Source: Alteromonas sp. LMIT006 (lineage in GTDB: Bacteria; Pseudomonadota; Gammaproteobacteria; Enterobacterales; Alteromonadaceae). Taken from it: a DNA stretch of 64,000 nucleotides. A program made the translations under genes and the position numbers. The notes beneath the pieces are model-generated. The model ran no database searches. It saw nothing but the letters and a program-made list of their open reading frames with translations, and was not told the origin of the DNA. The stretch covers positions 2,294,001 through 2,358,000 of the forward strand of contig NZ_CP101291.1 in assembly GCF_024300645.1 (NCBI RefSeq), written 5' to 3'. Of this stretch, positions 37,328-47,951 are shown one piece after another (positions within the stretch are counted from its first letter, which is position 1; every line of letters begins with the position of its first letter).

Positions 37328-38746
37328 ATGTCCTGCAATTTTTCTGTGCGTCCGATAACGGATCCTCACCTTATTCAAACTGATGTCCTGATCGTTCCTG
37401 CATCCTCAGATGAGCTTGCCAAGTTGCAACTCACAGCAACCAAACCCGATGCTATCACTAATGTGTTTAGACCTGATGGATGGCAAGCAAAATATGTGGT
37501 TTTGTGGCCCCAAGATAGGCATCAATCCAACGTAAGACCCCACCAATTTCGCAAAGCCCATGATGAGCTATTCAAGCATTTAGACACGCTTGATTTTGCA
37601 AAGGTCGCGTTCACTTGGCAATGGGTGGAAACTAATTGGCAACCGTATTTTTCTGCAAGAATTCTCGATTTACTCCAACGCACTTATGTGTTTCTCCAGT
37701 ATAAGACCTCTCCGGTTTCTAAAAAGTCCATTACTTCCTTAGAGATTTATGCGGACGCAGTAAAGCAAGATACTGTCGCCAAAATTAAGGCAACGCATTT
37801 GGGGACGACTTGGTATCGCGATATTGCCAATCAGCCTGCAAATGTTTGTACGCCAGATTACTTAGCTGAAAAAGCACTGCAGTTGGCTCAAGAGTATCGA
37901 ACGATTACGACACAAATTTTAGATGAAGAGGCGCTAGCAAAAGAAGGTATGGTCACGTACCTAGCCGTCAATCGCGCTTCGGCCCTACCTGCCTCGATGC
38001 CCATAATGCATTATCGCGGAGGCGTTCCGGGCGATGCACCAATTGTTTTGATTGGTAAAGGTGTAACGTTTGATACCGGTGGCATCAGTATTAAAACTGC
38101 CGCAAATATGCATGGCATGATTTACGATATGTGTGGCGCAGCGTGTATGTTGGGTGTGCTCAAGAGTGTTGCTGAGTTACAACTCCCACTTAATGTGACC
38201 GTCATATTGGCCACAGCAGAAAATCATGTTGATGGCAACGCCTATCGTCCAGGCGATATCTATCCAACGAAAGATGGGCAAACGGTAGAAATCATCAGTA
38301 CCGATGCCGAAGGCCGACTATTATTATGTGAAGCCATGGCCTATGCCAGAACGCTTAAACCCAAAGTAATGATTGATTGTGCCACCTTAACCGGGGCTGC
38401 GATCACCAGCCTTGGGCACGTTTGTAGTGGTTTGATGGCTAATGATCAACAGCTCGCTAAAGACTTGATACAAGCAGGTCAGAGCTCGGCTGATTATGTT
38501 TGGCAGTTTCCACTTTGGGATGAATATATGCCGGATTTAGAAAGTGAGCACGCCGATTGGCGCAACTCTGGGCGCAATAGTCCGGGTATGATAACAGCCG
38601 GCATGTTTCTCAAAAACTTTGCCCACGATACCCCTTGGGCGCATTTAGATATAGCTGGTACGAGTTTTCATTATGGTACGCAAAACTCTACTACTGGACG
38701 CCCTTTGTATTTGTTACTAGAATACTTGAATAAGTTAAATGCATAA
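37328..38746 (+). CDS. M17 leucyl aminopeptidase family protein
   Basis: A 472-residue cytosolic metallo-aminopeptidase. Metal and catalytic sites are seen in [15 protein letters not shown] (about 243-257), YDMCGAA and [10 protein letters not shown] (about 324-333, family consensus NTDAEGRL). The N-terminal domain is divergent, as in the PepB-like group. It lies 110 bases upstream of pqqA on the same strand with no terminator between, so it may be co-expressed with the PQQ genes. A role in trimming PqqA fragments is possible but unproven; general peptide turnover is the default. Confidence 0.9.
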
Positions 38747-38810
38747 AGTCACAACTAAAGTTAATACTTTTCTCCTCCCTAAGTAGGATGGTGTTTTCAT
38801 GTGTTAGGCA

Positions 38811-38816
38811 TATAAT
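38811..38816 (+). promoter_or_regulatory. Candidate -10 element of the pqqA promoter
   Basis: A consensus TATAAT 40 bases before the pqqA ATG, within an AT-rich 110-base gap. No good -35 hexamer at the right distance (TGGTGT is the best), so activation by a regulator would be expected. Confidence 0.4.
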
Positions 38817-38856: not shown

Positions 38857-38928
38857 ATGTGGACAAAACCAGAATATACTGAAATGCGTCTAGGCTTTGA
38901 AGTAACTTTATACATCAGCAATCGCTAA
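38857..38928 (+). CDS. pqqA: PQQ precursor peptide PqqA (operon copy)
   Basis: A 23-residue ribosomal precursor of pyrroloquinoline quinone. It begins MWTKPEY, and the two residues that become PQQ are present with the right spacing: Glu15 and Tyr19 in FEVTLY. AAAAAGGAT stands seven bases before the ATG. It is followed by a hairpin with T-tract and then pqqB 81 bases downstream. The peptide is bound by PqqD and cross-linked by PqqE. A second copy differing at one residue is found at 47450-47521. Confidence 0.97.
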
Positions 38929-38959
38929 GATTGATGAGTATTTAGAATTCGAAACAACA

Positions 38960-38990
38960 AAAGGTTGCTTAGGCAGCCTTTTTCATTTTT
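38960..38990 (+). terminator. Attenuator-like hairpin between pqqA and pqqB
   Basis: AAAGGTTGC/GCAGCCTTT (38960-38968 and 38973-38981, one G-T pair) with a 4-base loop, followed by TTCATTTTTTT. Partial termination here would give excess pqqA transcript over pqqBCDE, as described for other pqq operons. Its sequence resembles the terminator behind the second pqqA. Confidence 0.7.
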
Positions 38991-39009: not shown

Positions 39010-39930
39010 ATGCAAGTCTTAATATTAGGTGCAGGTGCTGGGGGCGGTTTTCCTCAGTGGAATTGTCACTGCGCAAATTGCTCTGGTCTGCGTCAAGGCC
39101 AATCTCATTTTCAAGAACGCACACAATCGAGTATTGCTGTATCGGTCAACGGCAAGGATTGGGTGCTCATTAATGCTTCTCCAGATTTACGCCAACAGAT
39201 CAATGCCAATCCTGAATTATGGCCAGAAGAAGGTGTTCAGCGTGGTACGGCGATCCGCTCTATTATTCTGACGGATAGCCAAATTGACCATACCACTGGG
39301 TTATTAGATTTGCGCGAAGGCTTACCTCTACCCGTTTACTGTACAGAAGTGGTGCACGAGGATCTCACTACGACTTATCCATTATTTACCATGCTTAAAC
39401 ACTGGCATGGCGGATTAGAACAACACATTATCTCCACTGAGCACGATGATGGGTTTACAGTAAAAGGCGTACCTGAATTACTGTTTCAACCGGTGGTACT
39501 TGAATCCAATGCCCCGCCCTATTCTCGCTATCGCGATAACATTGTGCCGGGCAACAACATCGGCCTCAAAATCACCGATACCACTAATGGCAAAGTCGTG
39601 TTTTACGCGCCAGGTTGCATGCAAGCGAACGACTTAGTCAAAAATATGATGGCACAAGCCGATTGTGTTTTGTTTGATGGCACTTTGTGGCTAGATGATG
39701 AGATGATCGCAGGTGGCTTTAGCCAAAAACTGGGTACTCAAATGGGCCATATGCCAGTAAACGGTGAGCACGGTACGATCAATCTGCTCAATCAATATGA
39801 TATACAACGCAAAGTACTGATCCACATCAATAATACCAACCCTGTTCTCAATGAACAGTCTGAGCAGCATTGTGCCCTAGTCTCACAAGGCATAGAATTG
39901 GCTTATGACGGCATGAAAATCAATTTATAA
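39010..39930 (+). CDS. pqqB: PQQ biosynthesis protein PqqB
   Basis: A 306-residue metallo-beta-lactamase-fold protein. It starts QVLILGAGAGGGFPQWNCHC, with the CxCxxC-type zinc site (CHCANC). LTDSQIDHTTGLLDLRE replaces the usual HxHxDH, as in all PqqB. PqqB acts as an iron-dependent hydroxylase on the Glu–Tyr-derived intermediate. Located after pqqA and nine bases before pqqC, in conserved order. Confidence 0.97.
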   Translation: MQVLILGAGAGGGFPQWNCHCANCSGLRQGQSHFQERTQSSIAVSVNGKDWVLINASPDLRQQINANPELWPEEGVQRGTAIRSIILTDSQIDHTTGLLDLREGLPLPVYCTEVVHEDLTTTYPLFTMLKHWHGGLEQHIISTEHDDGFTVKGVPELLFQPVVLESNAPPYSRYRDNIVPGNNIGLKITDTTNGKVVFYAPGCMQANDLVKNMMAQADCVLFDGTLWLDDEMIAGGFSQKLGTQMGHMPVNGEHGTINLLNQYDIQRKVLIHINNTNPVLNEQSEQHCALVSQGIELAYDGMKINL

Positions 39931-39939
39931 GGAAAAGAC

Positions 39940-40698
39940 ATGAGCAACACCACTGCATGGACAAGAGAAGAATTTGAAGCGCAACTTCGTGCGAAAGGTC
40001 AGTATTACCATATACATCACCCGTTTCATAAAAAAATGAACTCAGGTCAATGTACCAAAGCACAAGTGCAAGGTTGGGTGGCTAATCGCTTATATTATCA
40101 AATTGCTATTCCTGTAAAAGACGCAGGTATACTTGCAAACTGTCCTGACCAAGCCACGCGCCGCAAGTGGATCCAGCGCATCATCGACCACGATGGACGA
40201 GAAGGCGACGAAGGGCTAGGTGGCATAGAAGCTTGGTTACGTCTTGGCGAGGCCGTTGGTCTGACCCGTGAAGAATTATTGGATGAGCGACATTTGTTAC
40301 CGGGTGTCAAATTTGCAGTGGGTGCTTATGTGAATTTTGCCCGTCGCGCAACCTGGGAAGAAGCGGCTTGTTCGTCTTTAACTGAGATGTTTGCACCAGA
40401 AATCCATCAAAGCCGCCTTGATACGTGGCCCGAACATTATGATTGGATTGATAAAGAAGGGTTTAAATATTTCCAAATGCGTCTCTCTCAAGCGCGGCGT
40501 GATGTTGAACACGGTCTTGAAATCACACTGGATCACTTTACAACTCGTCCTCAGCAAGAAAAAGCCCTGAATATTTTGCAATTCAAAATCGACGTATTGT
40601 GGTCACTTGCTGATGCCATCAGCTATGCGTATGATTACGGACAAGTACCGTATGTTGGCATCGCTGATCAATCCATCAGTCATAAAGGAATGCTATAA
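39940..40698 (+). CDS. pqqC: Pyrroloquinoline-quinone synthase PqqC
   Basis: A 252-residue all-helical, cofactor-free oxidase that performs the final ring closure and eight-electron oxidation to PQQ. Typical stretches are [26 protein letters not shown] and [25 protein letters not shown] precedes the ATG. The pqqD ATG follows the stop directly with no spacer. Confidence 0.97.
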
Positions 40699-40962
40699 AT
40701 GAGCACGTTATCCTTAAACCCCTTATATCGCTTGCAGTTTGAGAAAGCGCAAGATTGTTATGTGCTGCTGTTTCCAGAAGGTATGGTAAAATTAAACCCT
40801 TCTGCAGCTGAGATATTACTGCAAGTCGATGGAAACAAAGACGAAGCGGACATTGTTGCAGCTTTGCGTACAAAATTCCCTGACGCACCTGAAGATATGG
40901 ACGCGGATGTCGCTGATTTTGTTGCTAAAGCGACTGAAAATAACTGGATCACTCATGGCTAA
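40699..40962 (+). CDS. pqqD: PqqA-binding chaperone PqqD
   Basis: An 87-residue member of the RRE (RiPP recognition element) family. It holds PqqA and presents it to PqqE. Recognisable elements are [23 protein letters not shown] at the start and [22 protein letters not shown] in the middle. It abuts pqqC and overlaps pqqE by eight bases. It is a separate protein, not fused to PqqC or PqqE as in some species. Confidence 0.96.
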
Positions 40963-42073
40963 ACCGCAACCAGGCCCCCCACTATGGTTACTTGCAGAAG
41001 TGACTTATGCATGCCCTTTGCACTGCCCCTACTGCTCCAATCCAACAGAGCTCGGCGATAAAAAGGATGAGATTGACACGCAAACTTGGCTCGATACTTT
41101 GAGTCAAGCACGGGAGCTGGGGGCTGTTCAGTTAGGCTTTTCCGGTGGTGAACCCTTGTTGCGCCAAGATTTAGAAATCATGGTCAAACACGCGTCTGAC
41201 CTTGGCTTTTACACCAACCTCATAACCTCAGGTATTGGCTTAACCGAAAAACGTATTAAAGCATTAAAAGACGCCGGTCTGGCGCATATCCAGTTATCAT
41301 TTCAAGGTGCTTCACCTGACATCAATGATTTGGTCGGTCAGCGCAAGCACTCATTTGAGCATAAACAAAAAATCGCTCGTCTCGTCAAACAATACGACTA
41401 CCCTATGGTGCTGAACTTTTGTATCACAGCGACCAATATCCATGAGATCCAAGAAATATTAGAACTGGCGACCGAACTCAATGCTGACTTTGTTGAACTC
41501 GCAACTGTGCAATACTACGGCTGGGCGTATCTCAATCGCGATGAACTCCTGCCAACCAAAACGCAATTAGAAGAAGCAGAGGCCAAGGTCAATGCTTATC
41601 GCGATGCGCAAACGAGTGGGCCTAAGTTTATCTTTGTCACACCGGATTATTATGAAACTCGACCAAAAGCCTGCATGAATGGCTGGGGCTCGACGTTTCT
41701 TACCGTGACACCAGATGGAACAGCGTTGCCTTGCCACAGTGCTCGGATGCTGCCCTTACAATTCCCAAACGTGAAAGACACCTCTTTAGAAACCATTTGG
41801 TACGGTGAAACCGATTTTGGGTATTTTAGAGGCGATGATTGGATGCCATCACCTTGTAAAACGTGTGATGAAAAAGACAAAGACTTCGGTGGCTGTCGCT
41901 GTCAAGCCTACATGCTAACCGGTGATATGCATAAGACAGATCCAGTATGTGATAAGTCTCCAGACCATCATCTGATCCAGACGGCTATAGCCAAAGCAGG
42001 ACAAAGTCAGAAAACGCTTGTCTATCGCGATCCCAAAAACGCCATTCCAATCTCTATTGCCGAGACGGAATAG
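40955..42073 (+). CDS. pqqE: PqqA peptide cyclase (radical SAM) PqqE
   Basis: A 372-residue radical-SAM/SPASM enzyme that forms the C–C bond between Glu15 and Tyr19 of PqqA. The SAM cluster motif CPLHCPYC is at residues 20-27. [13 protein letters not shown] follows, and the SPASM cysteines occur in [31 protein letters not shown] and DPVC. The start is the ATG at 40955 inside the pqqD end; longer upstream reading has no family similarity. Confidence 0.97.
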
Positions 42074-42091: not shown

Positions 42092-43192
42092 ATGTCACTG
42101 CAGTTATTTGACTGGAATGAACAAGATTATGCTGCGGTGTGTATTGTGCCTACCCCAAGCATCGATGCATCCGGCATTGCTCACTTAGTTGAGCATCTAG
42201 TCTTTCGATATTCAGATAAATATCCTAGCGGTCACGAATTATTTGTTGCCAACACATTACTTCCAGTCAAAATCAACGCAACGACACAAGATGGTTATAC
42301 TTTGTTTTATGTTGTGAGCCCAGAGCAGGAGGTGTTTTTGGCTTGTCTGGACTTTTTGGTACATGGCCTAGATCAGTTAGATTATCCCGAGCAAACTATT
42401 GAGCTCGAGCGCGATGGCGTATTGCAACGTGAATTACAATGGCTTGAAAGCCTTCCTGAGTACATGTCTGCAGCACTAATTAATCGTACCAATCCTTCCT
42501 GTATACACGCGGGTGGTTACAGTGATTTGATGCCGTTCAATAACATAGGTAATGTGGAAGTATACAAAAGAATTTGCTATCTAAGGTCCCATCGACAATG
42601 GCTGGTAAACGGTAAAGACCTGAAACAGAGTGATTTAGCCTGTCTAGGTTCGCCCACGGCTCTTTTCTCTGACTCTCTTACCACTAGTCAATATGATGTT
42701 CAAAAGCTACCAGAAGTGATCCAAGAATTACTATCTCAGAGCGTGCCAGCTGCTTATACCGAAGCATTGTTGCAATCCGCAAAAGAGCAACTTATGCAAA
42801 CACTGGCAATGCGTTTTCTTGAACCAGGCCAACCTGAAATACTTCCCTATCAGTCTAAACCAATGCCATGTCCTAAGGAGTGTGTCCAAAAGACAATGTC
42901 ATTACTCGCACAAGCATGTCAATGCCATATCAGCAGTGAAAATATCCCACCATTGCCTAATTTTATTCAATCCCAAGTTGCCGAATATCCAATGTTGTTA
43001 TTGGGACAACCCTGCCAAAATATTGTATTGAAAAAACTTGATGAACTTGAAATCGAGTTGGTCACCCAAGCCGATTTTTGGCAAAAACGCTTACAAGGAC
43101 AGTGTTATGCGATGGGGATTGGGCGTTTTGAGGAAGATATTTATCAATATGTTTTTGCTGAAAACACGAAACTATCGTCCTCTAGCACCTGA
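42092..43192 (+). CDS. Half-size M16 metalloprotease, PqqF-like
   Basis: A 366-residue protein 18 bases after pqqE on the same strand. An inverted zinc motif HLVEH is at residues 31-35 within GIAHLVEHLVF. A candidate third ligand is Glu114 in VLQREL, 79 residues later, the spacing expected for M16 enzymes. The piece after the motif (KYPSGHELF, then NATTQDGYTLFYV) resembles the M16C (presequence protease) branch more than classical PqqF. Known PqqF is about twice as long or works as two subunits; here only one catalytic-type half is present, with a divergent C-terminal half. Likely role: cutting cross-linked PqqA. The end overlaps the convergent MFS gene by 21 bases. Confidence 0.72.
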   Translation: MSLQLFDWNEQDYAAVCIVPTPSIDASGIAHLVEHLVFRYSDKYPSGHELFVANTLLPVKINATTQDGYTLFYVVSPEQEVFLACLDFLVHGLDQLDYPEQTIELERDGVLQRELQWLESLPEYMSAALINRTNPSCIHAGGYSDLMPFNNIGNVEVYKRICYLRSHRQWLVNGKDLKQSDLACLGSPTALFSDSLTTSQYDVQKLPEVIQELLSQSVPAAYTEALLQSAKEQLMQTLAMRFLEPGQPEILPYQSKPMPCPKECVQKTMSLLAQACQCHISSENIPPLPNFIQSQVAEYPMLLLGQPCQNIVLKKLDELEIELVTQADFWQKRLQGQCYAMGIGRFEEDIYQYVFAENTKLSSSST

Positions 43193-47229: not shown

Positions 47230-47449
47230 AGCTAACTAATGAACTAATTAGAGATAGTTTACCGTTTGCGGCTTCAATAAGAAATAGTGACTGAACCGGC
47301 AGTAAAATAATAACCATATGATGGCAAAATGCTCAACGACAAGAGACTATCCAATGTACCGCTTCTATTTTTCCTACTATTGAAGGGTATAGATAATCAT
47401 TAAATCCGCCTATACTTATCGATAGTTTTTAACAAATGGAGTAAAAACT

Positions 47450-47521
47450 ATGTGGACTAAACCTGAATATCATGAAATGAGATTAGGATTTGAAGTTACG
47501 TTATATATTAGTAACCGATAA
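47450..47521 (+). CDS. pqqA: Second PQQ precursor peptide PqqA (solitary copy)
   Basis: A 23-residue frame encoding [20 protein letters not shown] followed by SNR. It keeps Glu15 and Tyr19 and differs from the operon PqqA only at residue 8 (His for Thr). GGAG lies eight bases before the ATG, and a perfect terminator follows. Twelve other codons differ by silent changes, which indicates long selection on the peptide. No other pqq gene is next to it; the main operon ends 4.3 kb upstream. It should add precursor under a separate promoter. Confidence 0.93.
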
Positions 47522-47534
47522 TATACGTCTGAAT

Positions 47535-47566
47535 AAAAAAGGTTGCTCATGGCAACCTTTTTTTTT
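47535..47566 (+). terminator. Rho-independent terminator of the second pqqA
   Basis: AAAAAAGGTTGC/GCAACCTTTTTT (47535-47546 and 47552-47563), loop of five, followed by further T residues. Together with the short gene this gives a transcript likely under 200 bases. Confidence 0.93.
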
Positions 47567-47698
47567 GCGGTCCCATTATAAGCTATATAGTGTTCCTCAT
47601 AACGGATTAAATTTAACCAAAAATGCGGGTTCATGAGACCGTATTAGGTATATTTGAGACTAGTGGATTTGTTCGAATAATCACGGAGCAGAAGAAAT

Positions 47699-47825
47699 TG
47701 GTCGGTGTGATAGGATTTACTCCGCACATCCTGTGCTCCGCCCTTCGGGCCGCGCTAAAGCGCGTGCCAAAACGTTCCAGACGTTTTGGTGAACCTACAA
47801 GACCGCTTCGCGCTCTCGTCGTAGG
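47699..47825. repeat. tRNA-Pro 3' fragment joined to an array of small hairpins
   Basis: Bases 47699-47718 are identical to the 3' end of the adjacent tRNA-Pro gene (47875-47894). Then follow consecutive perfect palindromes: GCACA/TGTGC (47724-47736), GCCC/GGGC (47740-47750), CGCGCT/AGCGCG (47751-47764), CCAAAACGT/ACGTTTTGG (47767-47789) and CCTAC/GTAGG (47794-47825). Long open frames across this block on both strands look accidental. It explains most of the 353 gene-free bases between the second pqqA and the tRNA. Confidence 0.8.
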
Positions 47826-47874
47826 TAAGTCAACATGCTGTGGATTCGTTTGAGATTGTGGGAAAGCAGATAAA

Positions 47875-47951
47875 TGGTCGGTGTGATAGGATTTGAACCT
47901 ACGACCCCTGACACCCCATGACAGTGCGCTACCAAGCTGCGCCACACACCG
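47875..47951 (-). tRNA. tRNA-Pro (GGG)
   Basis: A 77-base cloverleaf with encoded CCA, acceptor CGGTGTG/CACACCG, D-arm GCGCAGCTTGGTAGCGC, anticodon GGG in loop ATGGGGT and T-arm GTAGGTTCAAATCCTAT. It has the same unusual T30·T40 opposition seen in the E. coli proL-type tRNA. A fragment of its 3' end is repeated 176 bases away. Confidence 0.93.

Follow-up and report, generated by a model that had tools for sequence, protein, structure and literature searches.

Each molecule of PQQ consumes one PqqA peptide. Copies of pqqA beyond the one in the pqq operon have been described in several bacteria. In Methylorubrum extorquens AM1, expression of the orphan genes pqqA2 and pqqA3 reportedly depends on which form of lanthanide the cells are given, and the same paper describes PqqA availability as rate-determining in Methylovorus sp. 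MP688 (PMC11317620). Members of the Methylophilaceae were listed with 3-12 pqqA copies and a single set of the other pqq genes, with one exception (PMC4109929). Hyphomicrobium denitrificans FJNU-6/FJNU-A26 has five pqqA genes, three of them apart from operons, and the off-operon pqqA3 is one of the two copies with high transcription (PMC9851590). Three pqqA copies are also on record for a Beijerinckiaceae strain. Regulation has been described in Pseudomonas: the ped/exa cluster and the distant pqq operon are both activated by the LuxR-type regulator AgmR/ErbR, whose gene has a nosP-type gene and a hybrid kinase gene as neighbours (PMC12997753).

The solitary pqqA2 of Alteromonas sp. LMIT006 joins this known kind, given the orphan or multiple pqqA genes of M. 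extorquens, Methylophilaceae, Hyphomicrobium and Beijerinckiaceae, and its placement as a further orphan pqqA is well supported; the statement of the first-pass annotation that multiple copies occur elsewhere is borne out by the same reports. As in M. extorquens AM1, pqqA is found outside the pqq operon. LMIT006 differs in belonging to another bacterial class and in having a recognisable pqq-operon-like operator before pqqA2. In the Methylophilaceae it is mostly pqqA alone that is multiplied, and genome-wide counts of pqqA and pqqC in LMIT006 gave two and one; unlike them, LMIT006 is an alteromonad with only two copies, 8.6 kb apart, and with one methanol/ethanol-type PQQ dehydrogenase. Off-operon copies are likewise shared with H. 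denitrificans, whereas that organism has a second, nearly silent pqqADE operon and a single pqqC was found in LMIT006. The gene types of the Pseudomonas AgmR/ErbR regulon are also present beside the LMIT006 dehydrogenase. The LMIT006 response regulator reached only 155 bits against the ErdR model (cut-off 390).

We consider it rather probable that pqqA2 is a working extra PQQ precursor gene, a complete small unit under the regulator of the pqqABCDE operon and of the alcohol dehydrogenase cluster, which would raise precursor supply.

Two pqqA genes in LMIT006

The window, the whole 64-kb stretch of LMIT006 DNA analysed, contains pqqA2 at 47450..47521 (+) and the operon copy, pqqA1, at 38857..38928 (+), both identified by profile and genome searches. 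The 23-residue pqqA2 peptide scored well over the curated cut-offs of TIGR02107 (46.3 bits; cut-off 20) and PF08042 (40.5 bits; cut-off 21.1). The PqqA family model had no match in 14 control genomes, which indicates that pqqA2 is not a chance frame. Whole-genome peptide search found pqqA at only these two places in the LMIT006 genome (2.53 Mb, single contig), versus one pqqC, and pqqBCDE are present in the same genome. Alignment confirmed that the two peptides are identical except for Thr8 to His, and that Glu15 and Tyr19 (E-x-x-x-Y), the residues that become PQQ, are present in pqqA2, as claimed in the first-pass annotation. The genes differ by 12 synonymous codons and the T8H replacement, 15 nt in all. 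Weaker expression of pqqA2 on the basis of codon adaptation was rejected, as both copies gave 0.78 against 16 window genes.

The two copies are 8,593 bases apart from start to start. Between them lie pqqBCDE, an M16 peptidase gene, an MFS/WYL pair, a DUF3087 gene and a TRAP solute-binding gene, on both strands. The operon genes pqqB (39010..39930, TIGR02108), pqqC (39940..40698, TIGR02111, the sole pqqC of the genome), pqqD (40699..40962, TIGR03859) and pqqE (40955..42073) are all on the + strand. TIGR02109 matched residues 48-399 of a longer frame (40829-42073); the putative pqqE start given here also fits the relatives, and pqqE is 97-99% identical in Glaciecola sp. KhW_metabat.5 and WKH.6. 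The following M16 peptidase (42092..43192, +; PF00675) has a PqqF-like N-terminal part with HLVEH in its sequence. It is only 366 aa long and barely matches the PqqF model TIGR02110 (14.7 bits; cut-off 320); PqqF-like forms of 482 and 489 aa are found in Glaciecola sp. UBA1851 and UBA2563. An M17 leucyl aminopeptidase gene (37328-38746) directly precedes pqqA1. A homologue of about 50% identity precedes the pqq operon in six of nine compared loci and in genomes G001, G005, G008, G009 and G106, and none was found before the operon in G089, G095 and G145. Our guess is that the M17 enzyme could trim processed PqqA.

The own ribosome site and terminator that had been claimed for pqqA2 were both recovered. 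A GGAG ribosome-binding site (47438..47441, +) lies 8 nt before the ATG, and an intrinsic terminator-like hairpin follows at 47537..47561 (+), with a fold of −17.9 kcal/mol (z −3.95; none of 200 shuffles as good). A terminator- or attenuator-like hairpin (38959..38982, +) was found between pqqA1 and pqqB by fold, terminator scan and pattern search. Throughout the genome the hairpin pattern, itself drawn from these two sites, was found only behind the two pqqA copies, which suggests a copied unit. A simple terminator scan listed the pqqA1 hairpin and not that of pqqA2, and a sigma-70 consensus scan listed no promoter directly before pqqA2. Lying outside the pqq operon and equipped with a ribosome site, a hairpin and a candidate promoter of its own, pqqA2 has the features of an orphan pqqA, as judged from sequence. 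Downstream, a 23-nt repeat of the tRNA-Pro 3' end is present at 47696-47718 and 47872-47894, 176 bases apart. The enclosed stretch is repeat-like; parts of it recur at other places in the genome, and KhW_metabat.5 and WKH.6 lack it here. The repeat pair may be read as an integration or repeat scar.

A palindromic box before pqqA and alcohol dehydrogenase genes

The palindrome CCTnCTnnAGnAGG, followed by a spacer and a −10 element, precedes Alteromonadaceae pqq operons, and CCTnCTnnAGnAGG is also found before PQQ alcohol dehydrogenase genes. Its CCT-N8-AGG element was present in 20 of 33 Alteromonadaceae pqqA upstream regions (0.55 expected; at most 4 in 500 base shuffles), a set that includes the window's pqqA1, both KhW_metabat.5 copies and the WKH.6 operon copy. 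We define the Alteromonadaceae PQQ-box regulon by the palindromic box (16 nt) and a −10 hexamer that follows it at a distance of 21-23 nt. In the LMIT006 operon, promoter comparison and the model placed the box CCTCCCTAAGTAGG at 38774..38787 (no strand assigned) and a candidate −10, TATAAT, at 38811..38816 (+). Before pqqA2, the model located a diverged copy of the palindrome, CCTACTATTGAAGG, at 47373..47386 (no strand assigned) and a candidate −10, TATACT, at 47411..47416 (+), with the box spacing of operon promoters.

The model of box, spacer and −10 was built from 14 non-redundant promoters (of 29, near-copies removed). The pqqA2 spacing had been noticed by eye before model building, and the three genomes with pqqA2 were all left out of training. 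Scores were 31.8 bits for pqqA1, 19.1 for pqqA2 of LMIT006 and KhW_metabat.5 and 14.6 for pqqA2 of WKH.6, each reached in 0 of 500 shuffles. The pqqA2 site was the second best in the 64-kb window after pqqA1; the next independent site scored 15.3, so that only these two reach 19. For the box alone, the chance of a match in the 107 positions of the upstream stretch was 0.0003-0.0008. In WKH.6 one arm of the box is changed, and, with the lower model score, the box may be weakened there. When the region before pqqA2 was aligned freely and locally with those before the operons, the match was weak (best z 3.1), and the box-spacer-minus-10 model was the only one of the methods tried that recognised the promoter likeness. 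A strict whole-genome search with the box pattern gave six matches at five places in LMIT006 and three in the reversed control; the box pattern alone is thus not specific. The diverged box and the −10 spacing before pqqA2 point, if not conclusively, to the same regulon as the pqq operon.

These features bear on the suggestion of the first-pass annotation that pqqA2 is independently regulated, which found no support beyond the separate promoter region, a region that itself carries the diverged pqq-type palindrome and −10 spacing. A rival explanation is that pqqA2 is differentially regulated and feeds PQQ synthesis under conditions of low operon promoter activity, a behaviour reported for the multiple pqqA genes of Methylovorus MP688 and the orphan pqqA of M. 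extorquens. The separate promoter region, the diverged box and the different surrounding bases would fit it, as would the published precedent of pqqA copies with differing responses. However, the operator type and the −10 spacing are recognisably those of the operon, no site of another regulator was noticed, and we regard differential regulation as unlikely, if well short of negligible.

Elsewhere, 28 non-pqqA box sites scored at least 14, and 25 of them were intergenic where intergenic bases make up 11.8%. Five related Alteromonas-type loci account for 20 of the 28, and the sites are therefore not independent. The count covers 14 hand-picked named loci and the dehydrogenase locus of LMIT006, and 8 of these 15 loci had no such site. 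In thirty column-permuted controls the number of intergenic sites ranged from 0 to 8, with no more than 2 in 29 of the controls. Six family loci were examined for a box before a dehydrogenase homologue, and each has one (L092, L097, L098, L107, L108 and L110); in the last five a box is also found near PedF and between two periplasmic-protein genes, the PedF site of L110 falling within a frame called coding.

In LMIT006 the single methanol/ethanol-type PQQ dehydrogenase gene (TIGR03075; L088:5648-7426) lies about 460 kb from the pqqA2 locus. A PF13360 search of the genome returned this dehydrogenase and one other frame of 406 aa, soluble glucose-dehydrogenase types being outside the search. The enzyme carries WDYDGVNE. 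An extra Asp two residues after the catalytic Asp is a mark of lanthanide-dependent PQQ dehydrogenases. Boxes lie before genes for the PedF-type cytochrome, the dehydrogenase, the ExaC-type aldehyde dehydrogenase and nosP (L088:3993, 5515, 7494 and 11319; region 1866000-1879000). When scored with the −10, only the nosP site was strong (24.7); two sites scored 12.5 and 11.9 and one fell outside the best eight, so that three of the four score below pqqA2 in the full model. Genes for a hybrid kinase and the LuxR-type response regulator adjoin nosP beside the dehydrogenase. Four of the five Alteromonas-type loci encode a homologue of this response regulator (57-65% identity) no more than 10 kb from the pqq operon. 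A search of open papers found no described pqq operator for Alteromonadaceae, and the CCTnCTnnAGnAGG box looks like a regulon operator whose description we did not find in the literature.

Distribution, conservation and origin of pqqA2

Ten genomes of the genus were searched, and seven carried pqqA. Two copies were present in three (LMIT006, KhW_metabat.5 and WKH.6) and a single operon copy in four, namely G001 (HTCC2999), G005, G008 and G009 (Opacimonas viscosa), G001 and G008 being only 82-83% complete. As four of the seven pqqA-bearing genomes have one copy, extra supply is not generally needed. In broader samples, pqqA was found in 8 of 147 genomes of the family and 15 of 394 of the order, with two copies in two genomes of each sample, and in 52 of 369 of the class, where 24 of the 52 had at least two copies by hand count, several in tandem. 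Among the best 80 of 135 PqqB relatives, a distant second pqqA was seen in the KhW_metabat.5 locus only and a tandem pair in one Colwellia; one incomplete locus showed no pqqA, and the remaining loci had one. These loci reach at most 10 kb to each side, often less, and the second copy of WKH.6 sits on another contig. A plasmid collection queried with the pqq locus returned 36 records, all 60-80% identical, none of which covers 80% of the query.

Absence of pqqA2 from close relatives that keep the locus was looked for, and both such relatives, KhW_metabat.5 and WKH.6, have pqqA2 at the same position (2/2). The order on one contig of KhW_metabat.5 is pqqABCDE, M16, MFS, WYL, DUF3087, TRAP protein, alpha/beta hydrolase and pqqA2. 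WKH.6 has the same order over two contigs, with the break within pqqC, followed by tRNA-Pro and pirin. In both, the alpha/beta hydrolase gene (443 aa; Abhydrolase_1; L018:13710-15041 and L019:6991-8322), with a weakly proline-iminopeptidase-like core, directly precedes pqqA2. Comparison with these relatives identified a relic of the gene in the window at 47313..47364 (+), about 50 bases with one base missing. A functional link between pqqA2 and the hydrolase was rejected, the hydrolase having been lost in the window while pqqA2 was kept. All three genomes retain the TRAP gene, but in both relatives its distance from pqqA2 is about 1.4 kb greater, and no link with it is claimed.

The pqqA2 sequences of LMIT006 and WKH.6 are identical, and that of KhW_metabat.5 differs at 2 of 69 bases, one of which makes residue 8 Leu; pqqA1 is identical in all three genomes. 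The 82 bases before the pqqA2 ATG show two differences between LMIT006 and KhW_metabat.5, one between LMIT006 and WKH.6 and three between KhW_metabat.5 and WKH.6. At four-fold sites of the neighbouring genes, 15-19% differ (TRAP gene, 28/144 and 28/147; hydrolase gene, 27/185; Fisher p against the 82 bases, 9e-5, 2e-5 and 0.005). In the wider 110 bases before pqqA2, which include the hydrolase relic, 22, 18 and 5 sites differ. The 82-base stretch was picked after the alignment had been seen and the history is mosaic, with distances that differ by gene, so these selection tests are indicative. Loss of the adjacent hydrolase gene did not extend into the 82 bases. Since that gene is reduced to a relic and yet pqqA2 and the 82 bases are almost unchanged, the pqqA2 unit is probably under selection. 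The 12 silent differences between the copies, from which purifying selection had at first been argued, are insufficient by themselves, and the three-genome comparison shows selection better. That pqqA2 is a real, old and conserved second pqqA some 8.5 kb from the first, as the first-pass annotation had it, is upheld by the distance, the profiles and the relatives.

The same comparison weighs against pqqA2 as a leftover of duplication or transfer, kept for now and with no effect on PQQ. Four other pqqA-bearing genomes of the genus have no second copy (two of them incomplete, as noted above), the neighbouring hydrolase has decayed in the window, and 7 of the 13 codons that differ take a form in pqqA2 that none of four genus relatives has. 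Against these points, the coding part and the 82 upstream bases are strongly conserved in three genomes in which neighbouring four-fold sites diverge, and we consider the leftover explanation improbable. That pqqA2 and the preceding hydrolase form a peptide-plus-peptidase cassette that serves some purpose other than supplying PQQ, as their adjacency in two of two relatives might suggest, is very improbable indeed, because the hydrolase is gone in the window where pqqA2 stays and the PQQ-forming residues are kept in pqqA2.

Two trees, one built on 72 coding columns and one on 247 columns, separated pqqA2 from pqqA1 (split support, 95/99 and 89/97) and joined pqqA2 to the operon pqqA of Glaciecola sp. 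UBA1851 and UBA2563. In the pqqBC tree, the LMIT006 operon grouped with the UBA and Alteromonas marina types and not with HTCC2999 of its own genus; the pqq locus therefore does not follow the genus. Duplication and transfer are both possible origins of pqqA2. For Alteromonas australica, a tRNA-adjacent PQQ island has been described (PMC4119200).

Proposed role of pqqA2

Our preferred reading remains that of a working extra precursor gene. The unit would consist of operator box, promoter, ribosome site, pqqA and hairpin, and the same regulator would turn on transcription of pqqA2, of pqqABCDE and of the PQQ-dependent alcohol dehydrogenase cluster. The candidate for this regulator is the LuxR-type response regulator whose gene adjoins nosP and its kinase beside the dehydrogenase. 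The pqqA2 peptide would be cross-linked at Glu15-Tyr19 by PqqDE of the operon and then enter the same PQQ route, and by a dosage effect pqqA2 may increase the amount of this precursor, of which each PQQ molecule takes one. Thus pqqA2 probably adds precursor rather than doing something new.

It is possible, at slightly less than even confidence, that CCTnCTnnAGnAGG is the operator of an undescribed Alteromonadaceae regulon of PQQ and alcohol oxidation read by the nosP-adjacent LuxR-type regulator, and that pqqA2 is a free-standing member of it, acquired as a means of increasing the supply of precursor, with a UBA1851-like pqq locus as a conceivable source.

LMIT006, with one dehydrogenase of the methanol/ethanol family and one pqqC, lends itself well to asking if PQQ synthesis is limited by the supply of PqqA, and the 12 silent codons allow its two near-identical precursor genes to be distinguished in RNA-seq. 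The shared operator may be a more useful by-product than pqqA2 itself, as the palindrome would provide a testable operator for the PQQ genes of the Alteromonadaceae.
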